In this document: piece by piece, positions 1,388-27,095 of the stretch
Layout: the number at the start of each line of letters is the position of its first letter
Position numbering within the stretch: position 1 is the first letter of the stretch
Assembly: GCA_024742285.1 (NCBI GenBank)
Contig: JANSYR010000001.1
Span: 1 to 64,000, forward strand
Reading direction: 5' to 3'
Source of the DNA: a bacterium
GTDB taxonomy: Bacteria > Myxococcota_A > UBA9160 > UBA4427
Length of the DNA stretch: 64,000 nt
The notes under the pieces: model-generated
Told to the model about the DNA's origin: nothing
Databases searched by the model: none
The model's input: the letters and a program-made list of their open reading frames with translations, nothing else
Made by a program: the position numbers and the translations under genes

Positions 1388-3520
1388 CTACGGACGGCTC
1401 TCCGGCAGCGAATAGGCCACGTACGTCGAGCCCGAGGGCCGGCCGAGCTTTCCGCCACCCGCCGCGACCACCAGGAACTGCCGACCGCCCACCGAGTAGG
1501 TCGCCGGCGTCGCGAATCCCGAAGCGGGCAGCGGCGTCTCCCAGACGACCTCTCCCGTCGCCTTGTCGAAGGCGCGAAGGGTCTCGTCTGCACTCGCGGC
1601 GATGAAGAGGAGGCCGCCGGCGGTCACGACCGGGCCGCCGTAGTTCTCGGTCCCGGCGCCGGTGATCCCGCGCTCGGCGAGATGCGGATAGTCGCCCAGC
1701 GGCACCTGCCAGCGGATCTCCCCGGCCGCCACGTCGATGGCGGTCAGCGTGCCGAAGGGAGGCGAGTTGATCGGGACGCCTTCTTCGTCGCGCAGATAGG
1801 TGTAGCCTCGTGCCACGTACGGCGCGCTGCTCCCCGGGCGGGCGTCGAGGGTCGCCAGCGCTTTCTTCTCGTCGTCGGGATCGGAGACGTAGGCGGTAAG
1901 ACGCTCGAGGATCGGCAGAGGAATGTGCACGAAACCGGGCATGCGTCCGCCCCCCAGCGCCAGTCGCGTCAGGATCTCGAGGTTCGTCCGCTGCTCGCCG
2001 ACGTCCCGGATCGCCGGGCCGACGCCGGTTCCCTCGAGATCCGCCCCGTGGCAGACGGCGCAGTTCTCGAGATAGACGCTCCGGGGATTCACGTCCTTCG
2101 GCGCCTCCATCATCGTCATCACGCCGCCGACCTCGTTCGCGTTCACGTAGAGGAGCCCCGTCTCGGCGTCCCACGCCGCCCCGCCCCACTCTGCGCCGCC
2201 ATCGAAGCCCGGGTACATGACCGATCCCTCGAGGCTCGGCGGGATGTAGTTCTCGCCCATTCGCATGCCGGCGAGGCGCGCGATCTGGCCGGCCCGGAAC
2301 CCCTCGGCCCGGCGATCGTCGTCGATCCGCTCCAGATCCATGGCCTGCCGCGTGAAGGGCGGCGGCGCGGTCGGGAAGGGCTGGGTCTTCGCGACCCACT
2401 CGTCCGGGAGGATCGGGGCGTGGACGGGACGCTCTTCGATCGGGAAGACCGGCTCTCCGGTCACGCGGTCGAAGACGAAGAGATGTCCGCTCTTGGTCGT
2501 CTGGGTGATCGCGTCGATCCGCTCTCCGTCCCGCTCGATCGTGACGAGATTCGGAGGCGCCGGCAGATCGCGATCCCAGAGGTCGTGATGCACGATCTGG
2601 AAATGCCAGCGACGCTCGCCGGTCCGGGCGTCGAGGGCGAGCAGGGAGTTCGCGTAGAGGTTGTCGCCCGGTCGATCTCCGCCCCAGAAATCCGGCGTGG
2701 CCGATCCCGTCGGCAGGTAGACGATCCCGCGCTCCCGATCGAGGGTCACGCCGGACCAGGAGTTGGCCCCGCCGCGCTCGCGCCAGGCGCCTTCGGGCCA
2801 GCTGTCCGCTCCGAACTCTCCGTCGTGCGGAATCGTATGGAAGCTCCAGCGCAGCGCACCCGTATGGAGATCGAAGGCGCGCACGTCTCCGGGCGCGGCC
2901 CCGTCGACCTCGCCGACCTTCGTTCCGAGGATGAGCAGGTCTTCGAACACGACGCCCGGCGTAGGCGATCCGACGTCCGAGGCTTCGAGACCGTGGGACA
3001 GGCCCGTTCGCAGATCGACGCGTCCGCCGTCCCCGAACCCCGGAGTGGGCTGCCCCGTGCCGGCGTCGAGCATCCACAGGTCCTGCCCCGACGCGGCCAG
3101 GATCCGCCCGCCCTCGGGCCCGGCCCAATAGACGACGCCGCGATTGTGTCCCTGCGCCGCGCTGCCGTGGGCCGTCGGATCGAAGCGCCAGAGCTCCTCT
3201 CCGGTCGCGGCATCGAGGGCGAAGGGATGGGAACGTGGTGTGGTTCCGTAGAGGACGCCGTCGACCACGATCGGGTTGCACTGGATCTGGCTGAGGCTGC
3301 CTTCGATGGGCCCCGTGTCGTAGGTCCAGACCCGCTCGAGGAGATGGACGGTGTCGAGGGAGATCTGGTCGAGGGGCGCGTAGTGGGATCGACGTTCGTC
3401 GCCGAGATAGACGCGCCACTCCCAGTCGGTCACGGGCGCCGGCGCCTCCGTCGGCTCCCCGCGCACACAGCTCGTCAAGCCGAGAACCGCGACTCCCAGC
3501 GCCACCCCGAAAACCCGCAT
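1388..3520 (-). CDS. PQQ-dependent dehydrogenase with c-type haem motif, lipoprotein
   Basis: A 710-aa quinoprotein of the glucose/alcohol dehydrogenase eight-bladed propeller type. Tryptophan-docking-like repeats (ALDAATGEELWRFDP, TAIDVAAGEIRWQ, RAFDKATGEVVWE) recur along the chain. A signal peptide with lipobox LTSC puts Cys18 at the lipid-attachment site, so the protein should sit on the periplasmic face of a membrane. A haem c motif CAVCH lies at residues 487-491 inside the propeller sequence, so electrons can leave through a built-in cytochrome. A GGAGGG ribosome-binding site precedes the ATG. The substrate is unknown. A second, haem-free relative lies at 28074-30074. Confidence 0.88.
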   Translation of the reverse strand: MRVFGVALGVAVLGLTSCVRGEPTEAPAPVTDWEWRVYLGDERRSHYAPLDQISLDTVHLLERVWTYDTGPIEGSLSQIQCNPIVVDGVLYGTTPRSHPFALDAATGEELWRFDPTAHGSAAQGHNRGVVYWAGPEGGRILAASGQDLWMLDAGTGQPTPGFGDGGRVDLRTGLSHGLEASDVGSPTPGVVFEDLLILGTKVGEVDGAAPGDVRAFDLHTGALRWSFHTIPHDGEFGADSWPEGAWRERGGANSWSGVTLDRERGIVYLPTGSATPDFWGGDRPGDNLYANSLLALDARTGERRWHFQIVHHDLWDRDLPAPPNLVTIERDGERIDAITQTTKSGHLFVFDRVTGEPVFPIEERPVHAPILPDEWVAKTQPFPTAPPPFTRQAMDLERIDDDRRAEGFRAGQIARLAGMRMGENYIPPSLEGSVMYPGFDGGAEWGGAAWDAETGLLYVNANEVGGVMTMMEAPKDVNPRSVYLENCAVCHGADLEGTGVGPAIRDVGEQRTNLEILTRLALGGGRMPGFVHIPLPILERLTAYVSDPDDEKKALATLDARPGSSAPYVARGYTYLRDEEGVPINSPPFGTLTAIDVAAGEIRWQVPLGDYPHLAERGITGAGTENYGGPVVTAGGLLFIAASADETLRAFDKATGEVVWETPLPASGFATPATYSVGGRQFLVVAAGGGKLGRPSGSTYVAYSLPESRP

Positions 3521-3589
3521 GCCACCCTCCTACCCGCTTCGCGCGAGAGGAACAGCATAGGACGACGGCGGCGACGAGCGAGGTCGGTT

Positions 3590-3985
3590 CTAGCGGGCGG
3601 GTCGCAGCGGAGGGTCGACGCGACGGAGCCGGATCGGGCCCCGCGCGGTCGACGCGTCGACGACGGATCCTCGCTGGAGCATCTCGAGCTCCCCGCGGAC
3701 GATCAGCCGGCGCGCAGCTTCGCGGACGGGCTCCATCCAGTCGCGCCAGTCCTCGCCGCCCACCGCGCGTGCGACCTCGGACGGACAGAACGTCGCGCCG
3801 GCGGCCGCCCGAGCGGCGCGCGTCGTGAGTGCGCGCTCGATCTCCCGATCACGTCGCCCGAGCTTGTTCCGTCGGCACTTCTCGCCGCAGTAGGCGATCT
3901 GATCCCACTCCGAGGCCCACTTCCGGCGCCACTCGATCCGCCGGCCGCAACGACGGCAGAAGCGATCTTCCTGGACCGTCGCCAT
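3590..3985 (-). CDS. DUF2256-DUF3253 fusion protein
   Basis: 131 aa. Residues 9-40 form a DUF2256-type zinc-ribbon domain with CRRCGR and YCGEKCRRNK. The rest matches DUF3253: WRDWMEPVREAARRL, then RGSVVDASTARGPIRLR, a winged-helix-like small domain. DUF2256 proteins are commonly found beside cryptochrome/photolyase genes, and here the photolyase lies one gene upstream. The upstream shikimate-kinase-like gene ends at 3989, three bases before this start, so co-transcription is likely. The function is unknown; a nucleic-acid or repair accessory role is only inferred from context. Confidence 0.8.
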   Translation of the reverse strand: MATVQEDRFCRRCGRRIEWRRKWASEWDQIAYCGEKCRRNKLGRRDREIERALTTRAARAAAGATFCPSEVARAVGGEDWRDWMEPVREAARRLIVRGELEMLQRGSVVDASTARGPIRLRRVDPPLRPAR

Positions 3986-3988
3986 CGA

Positions 3989-4576
3989 TCACAATGCCTG
4001 TGCGCCGAACACGGCTTCGATCGACTCGAGCAGCCCGTCTACGAGCTCGTGTGGATGCCGGTCGCCCGCGTCGTAGCGAACCGTCGCCGCCGAGAGGATC
4101 TCGGACCGGACGCCGTGGAGCGGCGCGAGATCGTCGGGGTTGCGGAAGGCGAAGGGCTGGTTGCCGAGCAGCCAGCGGCCGCCCCGGTGGATCTCCTTCT
4201 CGATCCGATCCAGTAGATACGTCGCTGGACGTTCGACGTAGACGAACTCCATGCGTCGACCAAAGAGCGAGCGCGCGTCCCGACTCGGCCAGGCCGCATC
4301 GAGGACGACGACGGACGACGGACGCTGGAGCGCACACGCCTCGAGCACATTGCGCGCACGCCTCGACACCGCGTCGACGCTCGTCCTCGCCACGAGGTCG
4401 GCGATGCTCGTACCCACCTCGTGTTCGATTCGCCGGTCCACCTCCACGAAGGGCAGGCCCGTGCGCGCGGCGAGCATCCGGCCCACCATCCGCGCACCGG
4501 ATCCCAGCTGACCACCGATCAGGATCGGACGGGAGAGCACGATTCTCGGGTGCGGCGAGTAGTAGTCGTCGTTCAT
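3989..4576 (-). CDS. Shikimate-kinase-like P-loop protein with degenerate Walker A
   Basis: 195 aa. The N-terminal half follows the shikimate kinase fold: GGQLGSGARMVGRMLA at residues 21-36 is in the P-loop position, and FVEVDRRIEHEVGTSIADLV follows as the shikimate-binding Asp region (Asp47). Compared with the usual GxGK[T/S], the lysine is Ala28 and the next residue is Arg29, so normal ATP-phosphate binding is doubtful. The start ATG overlaps the photolyase stop as ATGA (4573-4576), which argues for translational coupling. It is unlikely to be the housekeeping AroK. It could be a nucleotide or small-molecule binding partner of the repair cluster. Confidence 0.68.
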   Translation of the reverse strand: MNDDYYSPHPRIVLSRPILIGGQLGSGARMVGRMLAARTGLPFVEVDRRIEHEVGTSIADLVARTSVDAVSRRARNVLEACALQRPSSVVVLDAAWPSRDARSLFGRRMEFVYVERPATYLLDRIEKEIHRGGRWLLGNQPFAFRNPDDLAPLHGVRSEILSAATVRYDAGDRHPHELVDGLLESIEAVFGAQAL

Positions 4577-6180
4577 GCGAACGTCTCCGGTTCGAGCCGC
4601 CCTCCCGCGCGGAGCGTCGCGAGGGCGTGCTCGCGCACACGCCGATCCGCAGCGCGTCGATCGTCACCGCGCTTCGCGAGACTTCGGAGCGGCATCGCCA
4701 TCCGCACGTTCCCTTCGAGCGTCCCCTCGTTTCGCTCCAGGAAGGACCAGTAGAGCGGCGTGAGCGGACAATCCTTCTTGGGCGAGAAAGCGCACGTCTT
4801 GCAGTAGTCGGACATGCGGTCGATGTAGGCGGCGCCGGACACGTAGGGCTTCGTCACGAAGAGATCGCCCAGGCCGTAGGTCCCCATGCCGATCACGTTC
4901 GGCTCCACCACCCAGTCGTAGGCATCGACGTAGGCGACCCAGAACCAGTCGCTCAGCGCGCGCGGATCGAGGCCGAGGAGCGTCGCGATGTTCGAGAGCA
5001 CCATCAGGCGGGTGATGTGGTGGCCGTAGCCGGTCTGCCAGACCTCCTCGACGACGTGGTCGAGACAAGCGAGTCCAGACGGCGTGCCCCACCAGGCGTC
5101 CGGCAGCGGCTCGCTCGCATCGAGGGCGTTCGTCGTGGCGGAGGCATCCAGCTTCCGGAAGCCGTCCGTCTCGAAATGGACGTGCCGCATGAACTCGCGC
5201 CAGCCGAGAATCTGCCGAACGAAGCCCTCCTGACTGGCGAGCGGGAGATCGAGCGCGAGCGCATCGTCCACGACGTCTCGAGGCAGCAGGCGGCCGTTGT
5301 TCATCAGCGCCGAGATCCGGGTGTGGAAGAGGCCCGCCGACTTCGTCGACATCGCGTCTTCGTAGGGTCCGAAAGATCGGAGACAGGACGCCTTCGCCCA
5401 GGCCCATGCCCGGTCCGCATCCGCGCGACTCGCCGGAAGCGCCTCGACGTCCAGCTCGCCCGGATGGTCCGCGAACCGATCGGCGACGAGCGCGACGACT
5501 TCCTGCTTGACCTCGTCGACTTCGAAGACCGGCGGATCCGGCGCCGGCGGCTCGCCCTTCCAGGCCTTCCGATTGTCGGCATCGAAGCTGTATTTCCCGC
5601 CGACGGGCTTCTTGGCCTCCATCAGGATGCCCGAGTCCTGGCGGACGCGGCGATAGAAGCGGTCCATGCGCCATTGCTTGCCGCCCGCGAACGCCGCGCC
5701 GAACTGATCGCGCGTCGTGAGCCAGGTCTCGTTCGGGACGACGTCGATCCGGCCCGCCTCGACGAGCCCCGCGAGTCGCGACCGGAGCTCGTACTCTGCC
5801 GCCTCCATCATCCGCAGCGGGCCGAGCTCGAGGATCACCGGCGCCAGCAGCTCGTCGTAGGGGGCCTCCCCGAAGACGTACCGGACGGCGACGCCGCGCT
5901 CCGCCTGCTCGAGGGCGAAATGGCGCTGGCTCGCGAGGACCATCGCGAGCTTCTGCTTGTGATAGGGACGCTGGCGTGGCTTCCACGTGGTCTCGACCAG
6001 GACGATGCCGATCTCGGATGCCGGCTCGATGGCCAGGGGACCCACGCGATCGGTGAGCTGGTCGTAGGGAACGAAGATCCAGCGACGGACCCGCGACGGG
6101 TCGGCCACGTTGGCGGCACGAAGGCGCTCGAGAAAGGCGCTCATGTCGAAGCGGCCGTGGAGCGCGACCCGCGCGCCCAC
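4573..6180 (-). CDS. Fe-S cluster cryptochrome/photolyase (FeS-BCP, (6-4) photolyase type)
   Basis: 535 aa from a GTG at 6180; ATG at 6144 (MSAFLERL) is the likelier start and removes 12 residues. It matches the prokaryotic (6-4) photolyase group: an N-terminal Rossmann-like domain (WIFVPYDQLTDRVGPL), a C-terminal FAD-binding helical domain, and four cysteines that would bind a 4Fe-4S cluster at Cys372 (GLACLDHVV), Cys460 and Cys463 (YCKTC) and Cys471 (CPLTP). The loop between Cys463 and Cys471 is eight residues. The family repairs UV photoproducts with blue light. It sits in a minus-strand unit with a truncated membrane-protein gene upstream and kinase-like and DUF2256-DUF3253 genes downstream. 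Confidence 0.9.
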   Translation of the reverse strand: MGARVALHGRFDMSAFLERLRAANVADPSRVRRWIFVPYDQLTDRVGPLAIEPASEIGIVLVETTWKPRQRPYHKQKLAMVLASQRHFALEQAERGVAVRYVFGEAPYDELLAPVILELGPLRMMEAAEYELRSRLAGLVEAGRIDVVPNETWLTTRDQFGAAFAGGKQWRMDRFYRRVRQDSGILMEAKKPVGGKYSFDADNRKAWKGEPPAPDPPVFEVDEVKQEVVALVADRFADHPGELDVEALPASRADADRAWAWAKASCLRSFGPYEDAMSTKSAGLFHTRISALMNNGRLLPRDVVDDALALDLPLASQEGFVRQILGWREFMRHVHFETDGFRKLDASATTNALDASEPLPDAWWGTPSGLACLDHVVEEVWQTGYGHHITRLMVLSNIATLLGLDPRALSDWFWVAYVDAYDWVVEPNVIGMGTYGLGDLFVTKPYVSGAAYIDRMSDYCKTCAFSPKKDCPLTPLYWSFLERNEGTLEGNVRMAMPLRSLAKRGDDRRAADRRVREHALATLRAGGRLEPETFA

Positions 6181-23484: not shown

Positions 23485-24255
23485 TCACTCCTCCGGATCG
23501 GTGGTCCGCTCGAAGTCCAGGTGACGGACGATCATGCGCGTCGCCTCGTCGAGGTCGTCACCGGTGTAGACCTCCGCGGAGGGGCGATCTTCGAAGGACC
23601 GCGCCGCGTAGATGCGGGACCAGGCAATCGGATAGCTGACTCCATAGAGCACGACACCTCGCACGTCGTAGATGCTCATTCCGAGCCATTGGCCCACGAC
23701 GAGCTGCGGCCACACGGGCAGACCCTCGGCGAAGGGCATCCCCTGATCCTTCCAGGTCAGGTCGTCGCCGAGGGCGGTGAGCGACGAATTCAGGACTCTG
23801 CGGTATCGGGGCTGCGCGACCCTCGAGAAGAAGTTCAGATGGACGTACGCGTCGACGTCGTGCTCGGACGCGAGCTCCCGCAACGTGTACTCCCGTACGA
23901 GCTCGAACTTCTTCTCGTCCGCGACCCCTGTCGTCGTGTCGTACACGCCGCCCACCTCTTCCGCGAATCGACGCCAGAGCGCGTCGAACGAGGCGTCTTC
24001 CACGACCTCGTAGCCCATCTGCTCCAGTCGACTTCCCACCGCGTGCATGACCCGTTTCACGATCCGCTCTCCGCCGTCCAGGTCGGCCGGCACACGAATC
24101 GGTCTGACGACGATCCTTTTGACGTCCTGGCGAAATCGCTCCTTCGAGACCTTGAAGGGATCGTATTCGGCGCCCGCCGGCGCAACGATCCAGCACGAAA
24201 CGACCAGGAGCACGACGACGCGTCGCCCGATCCACCACCTACGACGCATGATCAT
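23485..24255 (-). CDS. Exported protein, distant paralogue of the 25569-26456 product
   Basis: 256 aa with an N-terminal signal peptide (basic MIMRRRWWIGRR, hydrophobic core, APAGA-E cleavage). The mature part has a helix ending LEQMGYEVVEDASFDALW, then GGVYDTTTGVAD, a helix ELASEHDVDAYVHL, and a C-terminal beta element GMSIYDVRGVVLYGVSYPIA. The same order occurs in the divergent gene at 25569. Its ATG overlaps the stop of the M48 peptidase as ATGA, so synthesis is coupled to the peptidase. The function is unknown; a substrate, chaperone or partner of the peptidase is plausible. Confidence 0.7.
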   Translation of the reverse strand: MIMRRRWWIGRRVVVLLVVSCWIVAPAGAEYDPFKVSKERFRQDVKRIVVRPIRVPADLDGGERIVKRVMHAVGSRLEQMGYEVVEDASFDALWRRFAEEVGGVYDTTTGVADEKKFELVREYTLRELASEHDVDAYVHLNFFSRVAQPRYRRVLNSSLTALGDDLTWKDQGMPFAEGLPVWPQLVVGQWLGMSIYDVRGVVLYGVSYPIAWSRIYAARSFEDRPSAEVYTGDDLDEATRMIVRHLDFERTTDPEE

Positions 24256-25529
24256 CGCTCCCCGTGCAGTCGCTTCTCGATCAACGCCCGATCCGGCGCG
24301 TCGGGTGAGAGCTCGAGAAACCGACGGAAAGCAGAATCAGACTCCGCAGAGCGTCCGTCACTCGAGTAGAGGAATCCCAGCTCGCGGAAGGCCGAGGCGC
24401 GTTCGTCGTCGATCGCGACCGCCCGTTCGAGGGCCTCGATCGCCTTCCCCAGACTCGCCCCACGGCCGCCGCGGCCACCTCGAATCTCGCCCAGCAGCGC
24501 CCAGGCCTCGGCATCGTCTTCGTTGTATTCGAGGAGACGCTCGAGCGTGCGAATGGCCCGGTCCCGGCGACCGAGCTTCCGGTCGAGCTCCGCGTTCCGG
24601 GTACCGACCCGCGCGATTCTCGCACGATACGCTTCGACCCCCACGCGCTCGGCCGCGACACCGCACGCCCAACGCGGGTCGGGCGCAGGCTCGAGGCACG
24701 TTCGATCCCGCTCCGCGGCGATCGCCCGCATGCTGTCCCGGCGCTCCTCCAGCGCCGGATGGCTGGCGTAGTAATACGGATCCTCGACTTCCGTGCGGTT
24801 CAGCTCGCTCGACGTCAGCGCCACGTCCGCCATCAACATCTCGAAGAATCCCGCCGCATGGGACGGGTCGTACCCGAGCGCGGCCATCCGCAGCAGCCCG
24901 CCGCGATCGGATTCGCGCTCCTGGTCCTGGGAGAATCCGGCGAGCTGGGGCGCCAGGATGCCGTCTATTCCCTTCACCGAGATGTCGTTGAACGCCAGAG
25001 GCGACAGGCCGAGGGGGAGGAGGACGAGAGAGGCCATCAACCGCGTCGACTTCAGCTGCGTCTCGGCGCGTTCACGGTAGATGCGATCGGCGACCGCGTG
25101 CCGGTTCAGGAAATGGGTCAGCTCGTGGCCGAGGAGAGCCACCAGTTGCGCCTCGTTCTCGATCTGGCTGGCCATGCCGATGTGAAAATGGAGTGTCCCG
25201 TTTGGGAAGATCGAGGCGTTTCCGAACGGATTGTCGAGGAGCACCACGCGCACCTCGCCCGCGGAGCGCCGCTCCTGGACCAGCATCTCGTCGACCAGGT
25301 CCTGCAGATAGGTGCGAAACTCCGGATCTTCGAAGAGCAGGCCGGCTTCCTCGACCGCCTCGCAGTACTCGTCCGCGTTCGCGACGAGCTCCTCCTCGAT
25401 GTCGGCGAAGTCCTCGGCGGGGATGCGCCCCATGTCGGGGCGCGTTGCCTGGCACGCGCCTAGCACGCCCACGACGCCCGCGAGAATTGCGAGCGAACGT
25501 AGAAAGGATGGCCAGGCGATCGAGCGCAA
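24252..25529 (-). CDS. M48-family metallopeptidase, TPR-containing lipoprotein
   Basis: 425 aa from a TTG with GGGAGG five bases upstream; the ORF is open further 5' but without a better start. Signal peptide with lipobox LGAC (Cys26). The zinc site is HELTH (His135, Glu136, His139) with the third ligand in ERESD (about Glu204 to Asp208). Hydrophobic LMASLVLLPLGLSPLAF may touch the membrane. The last 130 residues form TPR-like helices (RTLERLLEYNEDDAEAWALL, KAIEALERAVAIDDERASAF). It resembles BepA/YfgC-type outer-membrane quality-control peptidases. It is bracketed by two related exported proteins. Confidence 0.88.
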   Translation of the reverse strand: MRSIAWPSFLRSLAILAGVVGVLGACQATRPDMGRIPAEDFADIEEELVANADEYCEAVEEAGLLFEDPEFRTYLQDLVDEMLVQERRSAGEVRVVLLDNPFGNASIFPNGTLHFHIGMASQIENEAQLVALLGHELTHFLNRHAVADRIYRERAETQLKSTRLMASLVLLPLGLSPLAFNDISVKGIDGILAPQLAGFSQDQERESDRGGLLRMAALGYDPSHAAGFFEMLMADVALTSSELNRTEVEDPYYYASHPALEERRDSMRAIAAERDRTCLEPAPDPRWACGVAAERVGVEAYRARIARVGTRNAELDRKLGRRDRAIRTLERLLEYNEDDAEAWALLGEIRGGRGGRGASLGKAIEALERAVAIDDERASAFRELGFLYSSDGRSAESDSAFRRFLELSPDAPDRALIEKRLHGER

Positions 25530-25568
25530 ACTTGCCTCCCGCGAGATTCGACGACACGATACCCGAAC

Positions 25569-26456
25569 ATGATCCAAGACATCGAGCCCAGGGAGACGCC
25601 TCCGCCGCTGCCGCCCACGCGGCGCCCCTCGAGCGTGCGTCACGGCGCACCGAGCGCCGTTCGGGTCGCCTGCGCGATGCTGGCGGTCGCCTGGCAGTCG
25701 GGCTGCGTGCTCACTCCGACCCTCGAAGACGAGTCGGCTCTACGCGTATCGCCCAATCCCTTCATCGTCGGGATCGCCGACACCGACGCCGCCCTCGCCG
25801 AAGCCCCCACGACCGACGACGCCGATGCGCGGGCGGACGCCTCGTTCTGTCTCGACGACCTGTCGAATGGGTCTCCCATCGAAGACGACGATCCCCGCAT
25901 CTCCGATTTCGCCACCCTCCTCGAGGAAGAGTTGCGCGCAATGGGATTCGGAACCGTCTCTCCGACGGAGACGAACGACACCTGGGACCGTGTCATGGCT
26001 GCCTCGGGCACGCTCTACGATCCGATCACCGGCCAACCGGACCTGGAGGCACACGACCGCGCGAGGCGCGCGGCCATGATCGCGCTCGACGAGGAACACG
26101 GCTGCGGGTTCCTGCTGATCCCGAGCATCGTCACGGTCAGCACCTCCTGGAGGAACGGGATCGCCAGGTGGGACGGAATCACCGAACGATTCGGAACCGG
26201 AGGGGCCGGCGCATTCGGCTCGACCGGTGCCCTCAGTCTGCACGTCTCGATCTGGGATCGTGAATGGGAGCGGGTCTACTTCGGAACCGGAGGAATCGAG
26301 TTGCTCGCGCGCGTCGTCGACTCCTTCTGGGAGTCCGACTTCGAGGACCTTCCGCGCGAATCGCTCCTCACGAATTCCGAGTGGAACCTGGATTCGATCC
26401 GCGAAGCGCTGCGCGACCTGCGAACGCCTGCGGACCCGCCGAACGACGACTCATGA
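25569..26456 (+). CDS. Lipoprotein, distant paralogue of the 23485-24255 product
   Basis: 295 aa. A hydrophobic stretch ends in lipobox QSGC. A GTG 21 codons into the frame would give a shorter, more typical signal peptide. The mature part repeats the layout of the 256-aa protein beyond the M48 gene: helix LLEEELRAMGFGTVSPTETN, then TLYDPITGQPDLE, a helix ALDEEHGCGFLLIPSIV, a Gly-rich turn, and SLHVSIWDREWERVYFGTGG. It is divergent from the peptidase, with only 39 bases between starts, so a shared promoter region is likely. The function is unknown. Confidence 0.68.
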   Translation: MIQDIEPRETPPPLPPTRRPSSVRHGAPSAVRVACAMLAVAWQSGCVLTPTLEDESALRVSPNPFIVGIADTDAALAEAPTTDDADARADASFCLDDLSNGSPIEDDDPRISDFATLLEEELRAMGFGTVSPTETNDTWDRVMAASGTLYDPITGQPDLEAHDRARRAAMIALDEEHGCGFLLIPSIVTVSTSWRNGIARWDGITERFGTGGAGAFGSTGALSLHVSIWDREWERVYFGTGGIELLARVVDSFWESDFEDLPRESLLTNSEWNLDSIREALRDLRTPADPPNDDS

Positions 26457-26513: not shown

Positions 26514-27095
26514 CTAGCGCGGATCGAATCGGAAGACCCGATCGCCGGGCTCGGCGCGTCCCGCGCGACCGGTCAGCGTCTCGCCGACGTCGACGACCGT
26601 CGCGTGGGCCGCGGTCTCGGCGGCGGCACGGGCGCCTCCTTCGCCGGAATACTTCCGATCGCGGTCCGCCTTGACGGCTTCGTACTCCGCCGTCTCGTGG
26701 GGCACGTAGCCGAGTCGCCCCTCGATCCGCCGATCGTCGATCCGCATCACGACGCGATCGTCCTCGCGGACCTCCGAGGGCCAGCGCGTCAACCGACCGT
26801 CCTCGCAGTCGAGATCGCAGGCGACGTAGGCGACGCCGTCGGTCACGCTGAACCAGAGCGTGAGCGAGGTCTCGGCCCCGACGAGCTCCATCTCGAGCTC
26901 CGTCTTCGTGTCGAGCGCCGTCCAGTCGACCGCGTCGTAGGCGACGAGCTCGCCGGAGCGGAAGGGGCCCCCCTGGAAGATGAAGAAGGGGCCATCGGCG
27001 CGTCCGATCAGGAACAGGCCGAGGCCGACCACGAGCACCACCGCGCCCAGTCCCGCCAGGACGGGCCGTCCCCACCCCGAACTCTCCTCAGCCAT
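26514..27095 (-). CDS. Membrane-anchored GPFF-motif protein
   Basis: 193 aa. One N-terminal membrane anchor (VLAGLGAVVLVVGLGLFLIG) is followed by GPFFIFQGGPFRSGELVAYD, a beta-rich domain with LTLWFSVTDGVAYVACDLDC, RVVMRIDDRRIEGRLGYV, and a helix EYEAVKADRDRKYSG. The order and motifs match the 149-aa lipoprotein at 51788-52237, so the two are diverged paralogues. The beta-barrel pattern recalls FMN-binding split-barrel (pyridoxamine-oxidase-like) folds, but no cofactor motif is certain. It stands between the lipoprotein gene and a divergent LLM oxidoreductase gene. Confidence 0.62.
   Translation of the reverse strand: MAEESSGWGRPVLAGLGAVVLVVGLGLFLIGRADGPFFIFQGGPFRSGELVAYDAVDWTALDTKTELEMELVGAETSLTLWFSVTDGVAYVACDLDCEDGRLTRWPSEVREDDRVVMRIDDRRIEGRLGYVPHETAEYEAVKADRDRKYSGEGGARAAAETAAHATVVDVGETLTGRAGRAEPGDRVFRFDPR

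Follow-up and report, generated by a model that had tools for sequence, protein, structure and literature searches.

A predicted BepA-like M48 peptidase encoded beside two homologous exported proteins in a bacterium of the Myxococcota_A

Introduction

Why should the gene for a metallopeptidase lie between two genes whose exported products resemble each other? The question is raised by a locus in a 64,000-nucleotide stretch of DNA (contig JANSYR010000001.1 of GenBank assembly GCA_024742285.1, positions 1 to 64,000; hereafter “the window”) from a bacterium of the GTDB lineage Myxococcota_A, UBA9160, UBA4427. Within positions 23485-26456, the peptidase gene P0002 is followed on the minus strand by P0001, and P0003 runs divergently from them on the plus strand. 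An earlier note, made from the sequence alone, took the two flanking products to be paralogues and proposed that they are dedicated partners or substrates of a BepA-like peptidase, possibly in an envelope quality-control module. It named a profile comparison of the flanks and the recurrence of the neighborhood in related genomes as the points on which this idea would turn.

BepA of E. coli, an M48 peptidase with TPRs, invites comparison. Passages of two papers (PMC8423444, PMC7950410) describe a TPR domain that contacts LptD and the BAM complex, and a peptidase part with a His246 switch. Passages of the former describe BepA as promoting the maturation of LptD, probably its association with LptE, and as degrading LptD that has stalled.

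Results

The features of the locus are as follows; A1 and A2 denote the families of P0001 and P0003, and A3 is a related branch described below.

23485-24255, minus strand: P0001, 256-aa exported protein of flank family A1 (open reading frame coordinates)
23746-23754, minus strand: WKD, P0001 residues 168-170, counterpart of the WDG of P0003 and A3 (alignment, hhalign)
23926-23943, minus strand: YDTTTG motif, P0001 residues 105-110, with a counterpart in P0003 (alignment, hhalign)
24252-24255, minus strand: ATGA overlap of 4 bp, peptidase stop plus P0001 start
24252-25529, minus strand: P0002, M48 peptidase with TPRs, 425 aa; start taken as TTG 25529, the start codon being uncertain
24267-24593, minus strand: TPR region, P0002 residues 313-421 (Pfam)
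24759-24761, minus strand: His257 of the P0002 SHP motif, position of the M48 plug histidine, aligned with the THP of 3c37
24918-24920, minus strand: Glu204 of P0002, aligned to the region of the third zinc ligand of BepA (alignment)
25113-25127, minus strand: HELTH zinc-binding/catalytic motif, P0002 residues 135-139 (alignment)
25530-25568, no strand: divergent gap between P0002 and P0003, 39 bp, its length dependent on the starts (open reading frame coordinates)
25569-26456, plus strand: P0003, 295-aa exported protein of flank family A2, lipoprotein-like in most relatives
26016-26033, plus strand: YDPITG motif, P0003 residues 150-155 (alignment, hhalign)
26169-26177, plus strand: WDG motif, P0003 residues 201-203, common to A3 (alignment, hhalign)

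The 4-bp ATGA overlap follows from the coordinates and bears out the coupling of one flank to the peptidase that had been read there before. The 39-bp divergent gap, also claimed then, stands with the TTG and ATG starts, but it widens to about 105 bp if P0003 starts later, at GTG 25635. Next to P0003 lies a gene for a 193-aa protein (window 26514-27095, minus strand) that has a single hydrophobic stretch, at its N-terminus, and matches nothing in Pfam; this gene is not kept beside the unit at other loci. PADLOC returned no match and did not indicate a defence system, and we rejected such a role for the unit on that ground. Plasmid-borne spread was rejected as well: tblastn of P0001 and P0003 against 72,556 plasmid records gave no match.

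P0002 scores 60 bits against the M48 profile PF01435 (curated Pfam cut-off 20.3), and TPR_11, TPR_9, TPR_8 and TPR_19 exceed their Pfam cut-offs in its C-terminal part. Against the BepA equivalog NF052400 it reaches 69.3 bits, far under the cut-off of 570. The description of the enzyme as BepA-like with TPRs thus holds, and by these profiles P0002 is predicted to be a BepA-like M48-TPR protein, not BepA. Its catalytic residues are intact: in a seven-row alignment of P0002 with six relatives, HELTH and Glu204 occupy invariant columns, and the column of His257 reads SHP in the enzymes of the unit, with DHP in one. P0002 shares with BepA the HExxH, the region of the third-ligand glutamate, the SHP histidine and C-terminal TPRs, and BepA chains in the PDB match over residues 24-241 in the comparison with P0002. 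It differs from BepA in its shorter TPR part, in its lipoprotein signal (lipobox LGAC) and in the paralogous flanks encoded alongside. P0001 has an ordinary signal peptide. These signals, like all signal peptides and lipoboxes in this report, were judged by eye.

The two flanks are homologous. A pairwise blastp of P0001 and P0003 gives E 4e-5, and hhalign of the ortholog alignments A1 (six P0001-type proteins) and A2 (seven P0003-type proteins, one of them partial) gives 99.3% and E 1e-20 over 205 columns, almost the full length. P0001 is picked up at E 1.6e-17 by the A2 profile, which was built without any P0001-type protein, and P0003 at E 2.1e-8 by the A1 profile; the best E values in 2 x 2000 shuffled sequences were 2.2 (A2 profile) and 0.034 (A1 profile). 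The other open reading frames of at least 80 aa in the window gave no match to the two profiles at E up to 1. The family tree places the P0001 type (100/99) next to the P0003 type (96/89) as its sister clade (95/84), which agrees with one old duplication. The profile comparison has therefore come out in favor of the paralogy first proposed, and each of the shared elements listed for it is present: the xMGxxxV-type motif (EQMGYEVV in P0001, RAMGFGTV in P0003), the YDxxTG motif (VYDTTTGVAD, LYDPITGQPD), the EHxxxA/F motif (SEHDVDAY, EEHGCGF) and the SIxDxxxxVxxG strand (SIYDVRGVVLYG in P0001, SIWDREWERVYFG in P0003).

Known families offer no place for these proteins. No Pfam or NCBIfam entry matched the A1 and A2 families, and Pfam profiles of the CsgG, LpoB, TolB-N and DUF4136 type matched neither the two flanks nor ten relatives at E up to 1. 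A search of PDB sequences gave nothing up to E 10 with the A1 profile, and only weak, unrelated matches with the A2 and A3 profiles. Two marginal Pfam matches, of P0001 to an RNase III-like profile (E 0.0079, 16.8 bits versus 35) and of P0003 to PT-TG (E 0.055, 13.9 bits versus 23.5), did not repeat in relatives and were set aside as chance. P0003 itself has a cysteine behind its hydrophobic stretch in a non-standard lipobox, QSGC. Better lipoboxes occur in P0003-type proteins of G002 (LLFGC), G003 (LPGC), G008 (LLGC) and G016 (LALGC); that of G007 (LAMAC) is borderline, and G045 has none.

An AlphaFold model of P0001, made with four sequences, has a pLDDT of 67 (about 80-90 for most of the core) and a pTM of 0.65. 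Foldseek returned seven matches at E up to 0.001 (best 7.2e-6), namely HpaA with its homologues and the LPHT ring. VIA-align 2, for which the stated background is Z 7-8, ranked the model against HP0492 (Z 9.3, rmsd 6.8, 146 aa), PelC (8.7, 3.9, 120 aa), TolB (8.2, 3.3, 115 aa), GNA1162 (7.6, 5.2, 112 aa), LpoB (7.3, 3.9, 114 aa), DUF4136 (7.2, 4.8, 120 aa), CsgG (6.4, 9.0, 139 aa) and LptE (5.5, 8.2, 119 aa). Most of the top matches are envelope proteins of one fold group, and the TolB-N/PelC/HpaA/CsgG/GNA1162/LpoB/LptE proteins are the best structural matches of the model, at Z 5.5-9.3. Unlike members of that group, P0001 and P0003 have no Pfam, NCBIfam or PDB sequence match to it. Because the Z values lie near the background of the tool, we grade the TolB-N/PelC/HpaA/CsgG envelope fold of P0001 as likely, not proven. 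The P0003 model is poor (pLDDT 48), with helices and strands in the order seen in P0001; its five best matches, at Z 3.9-4.5, again come from that fold group and include the LPHT ring, PelC, HpaA and LptDE.

The arrangement recurs in related genomes, where it follows one M48 subclade, as the idea of a linked cassette had called for. Linkage was judged by stop-to-stop open reading frames and profile matches. P0001-type genes are present in six of 90 genomes of the class (G000, G002, G003, G007, G016 and G045), the other matches of the A1 profile there being of P0003 or A3 type; P0003-type genes are present in those six and in G008. Among 377 sampled genomes of the phylum, none outside the order yielded a P0003-type gene. 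Both types occur only in genomes with the one M48 subclade, and they adjoin its gene wherever contigs permit; the exception is G007, where the P0003-type gene is on a separate contig and adjacency is not assessable. The seven enzymes of the unit group together (84/88) in a tree of 35 M48 proteins. By comparison, no relative of the flanks (A1, A2 or A3) was found within about 1.5 kb of the 28 other M48 genes, a count in which contig ends can cut the flanks; in the window’s genome, one of six M48 genes has flanks.

The details of the arrangement are also kept. A 4-bp overlap (ATGA or GTGA) joins the peptidase gene to the P0001-type gene at all six loci, including that of G045, where P0001 precedes the peptidase. 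The P0003-type gene is divergent at all five assessable loci that have P0001; in G008, which is missing the P0001-type gene, it lies upstream of the peptidase on the same strand. Identity to the window copies falls as low as 25% for P0001, 26% for P0003 and 28% for P0002. The outer neighbors vary among loci, and no barrel or transport gene was found to recur next to the unit in the loci compared. Three of the loci are also found in other records, all of them metagenome-assembled, including a deltaproteobacterium and a Myxococcota bacterium. One contig of G016 starts with a second P0003-like fragment (L079:1-429, G016:C212) that resembles, and is not identical to, the end of the G016 copy on C149; it may be a paralogue or a strain variant.

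The third branch, A3, links this family to a second kind of enzyme. Long profile-profile matches (hhalign A2-A3, 98.8%, E 8e-17; A1-A3, E 8e-9) place A1, A2 and A3 in one predicted superfamily. Within the class we count 27 A3 genes at 26 loci, having left out three further matches of the A3 search that are of P0003 type. At seven of the 26 (L100, L101, L143, L148, L149, L150 and L151), A3 immediately precedes, on the same strand, a gene for an HExxH-TPR protein of MA/DUF1570-like type; at L149 the A3 gene is broken by a TGA. Like P0002, these proteins combine an HExxH with TPRs beside relatives of the flanks; unlike P0002, they belong to another peptidase family and have no M48 match in Pfam. 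Matches of their peptidase part to Pfam are mostly below cut-off, with DUF1570 passing in two of eight scanned. At L147, the start of a peptidase is visible after A3 and the rest is cut by the contig end. L146 (G006:C122, about 3417-5494) has two tandem A3 genes and, behind them, what is left of a decayed peptidase-TPR gene. No peptidase was seen alongside A3 at the other 17 loci, among which L075 ends at a contig edge and is not assessable. At three peptidase-less loci (L076:3896-4615, L077:4536-5135 and L142:5530-6042), the A3 gene adjoins another small lipoprotein-like gene, which by eye we take to be DUF4136-like.

We had thought that the 23 other MA-TPR loci would have such a partner; their neighbors did not bear this out, no A3-type gene being present (at L181, the side where it would lie is cut). 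That the seven partnered proteins rank at the top of the MA-TPR search is no evidence, because they helped to build its profile, and in the MA-TPR tree they do not form one clade (2 changes). Two family members from outside the class (L154, L155) carry YDxxTG-like and WDG signatures and have no M48 or MA-TPR match in the surrounding stretch. In a further set of MA/DUF1570-like TPR proteins (L169, L172-L177, L184 and L185), an HExxH-type motif was not found; by sequence, these are apparently a second group with lost catalytic sites.

The nearest relatives of the unit’s enzymes in the M48 tree (L006, L046 and L047; a 10-row clade, 100/100) each adjoin a different lipoprotein of about 245 aa, A10; two of them overlap its gene by 4 bp, and the third is separated from it by 29 bp. 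In the class, A10 has five strong matches, all of them adjoining an M48 gene, and a sixth, weak match in G087. The other 25 loci of the M48 tree lack both A1-A3 and A10 alongside. We had expected A10 to be homologous to the flanks, and profile comparison did not support this (hhalign 1.9% over 19 columns and 0.75% over 31). In two of the three sister enzymes RExxH replaces HExxH, so they are probably not active peptidases. Two M48-TPR lipoproteins, L216:4973-6193 (in the window’s genome, G000:C4) and L217:5185-6435, have RExxH variants (REMAH and RELAH, respectively) and are probable pseudo-peptidases by sequence; their operons hold a ~245-aa A10 lipoprotein upstream and a ~200-aa lipoprotein downstream.

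Discussion

The peptidase of this locus is of a known kind. For the partnered arrangement and the family of the flanks, we found no description in Pfam or NCBIfam or in the literature retrieved by searching.

Homologous flanks that recur with one M48 subclade give good support to the earlier proposal of dedicated partners or substrates, as a pair of options. Between the two we lean, tentatively, toward partners: adaptors or scaffolds of the peptidase that bind via its TPR arm or beside it. We hold this view because the presence or absence of the flanks follows that of one enzyme subclade, because the 4-bp overlap survives a swap of gene order, because the two flanks arose by duplication within the unit, and because relatives adjoin a different HExxH-TPR protein in a like manner. 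The envelope-type fold of the P0001 model counts for it too. Further, HExxH, TPRs and an export signal are common to both peptidase types, and this suggests that the partner requires the TPR part. Against this reading we count the 23 MA-TPR loci without a partner neighbor and the G008 locus without P0001, as well as a fold match near background and a poor model of P0003. The flank family evidently does not need a peptidase everywhere, since none was seen beside A3 at 17 of 26 loci, or beside L154 and L155.

Another possibility, to which we give second place, is that the flanks are clients of the peptidase. As such, they would form part of an assembly in the outer membrane or periplasm, being ring, plug or transport subunits similar to PelC, CsgG or LptE, and the enzyme would be their assembly or quality-control factor, as BepA is for LptD/LptE. 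The co-occurrence and coupling data fit this equally, PelC, CsgG and LptE are among the structural matches of the P0001 model, and the promotion of LptD maturation and degradation of stalled LptD by BepA, in the passages cited (PMC8423444), set a precedent. However, a barrel or transport gene does not recur next to the unit, and the occurrence of flank relatives with no peptidase neighbor speaks against an obligate client.

It is unlikely that the flanks, one or both, regulate the peptidase by holding its plug histidine closed or open in response to envelope stress. The enzymes of the unit retain the plug-type SHP histidine, albeit as DHP in one, BepA is switched by His246 in the passages cited (PMC7950410, PMC8423444), and a divergent gene beside a coupled pair would permit separate control of dose; but the partners of A3 are of MA type, another peptidase family, and a shared regulator of the M48 plug fails there. 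That the genes are neighbors through common descent or hitch-hiking, with no common function, is very improbable. Confinement of the unit to one order and few genomes would fit it, but the unit holds while identity drops to 25%, 26% and 28% and outer neighbors change, its overlap is kept in the swapped order of G045, and where the enzyme is missing the flanks are missing too. Our order of preference is thus adaptor or scaffold, client, regulator and, last, chance.

If the flanks are adaptors or scaffolds, the three genes would make up one functional unit. P0002 would be an M48 peptidase with a TPR arm, anchored in the membrane and facing the periplasm, and P0001 (soluble) and P0003 (probably lipidated) would have arisen by duplication of one TolB-N/CsgG-like envelope protein. 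Both would probably bind either the TPR arm or a site next to it at the membrane, and there select, hold or present an envelope client. The peptidase would then help to assemble this client, or cleave it once stalled. We infer the physical contact, the localization and the adaptor role of the flanks from the genomic pattern and the models. With BepA as a guide, an outer-membrane complex could be what the partners serve; among the neighbors of the compared loci, there is no linked client gene. An envelope quality-control role is plausible by analogy with BepA and from the predicted fold.

A broader view, which we regard as doubtful, would extend this to the whole class. TPR metallopeptidase lipoproteins, both M48 and MA/DUF1570-like, would be multi-subunit envelope machines whose constant element is the TolB-N/CsgG-like partner family, which in the window’s unit has split by duplication into one soluble and one lipidated protein. 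The conserved core would then be the partner-plus-TPR scaffold, not proteolysis, and the loss of the zinc site in some sister enzymes would follow.

BepA-type peptidases determine the fate of outer-membrane proteins, which are finished or destroyed. If the preferred reading is true, dedicated, co-encoded partners whose relatives adjoin a second type of peptidase would make the selection of clients testable as a separate module. The locus also gives a first handle on a family of exported proteins absent from the libraries that we searched.
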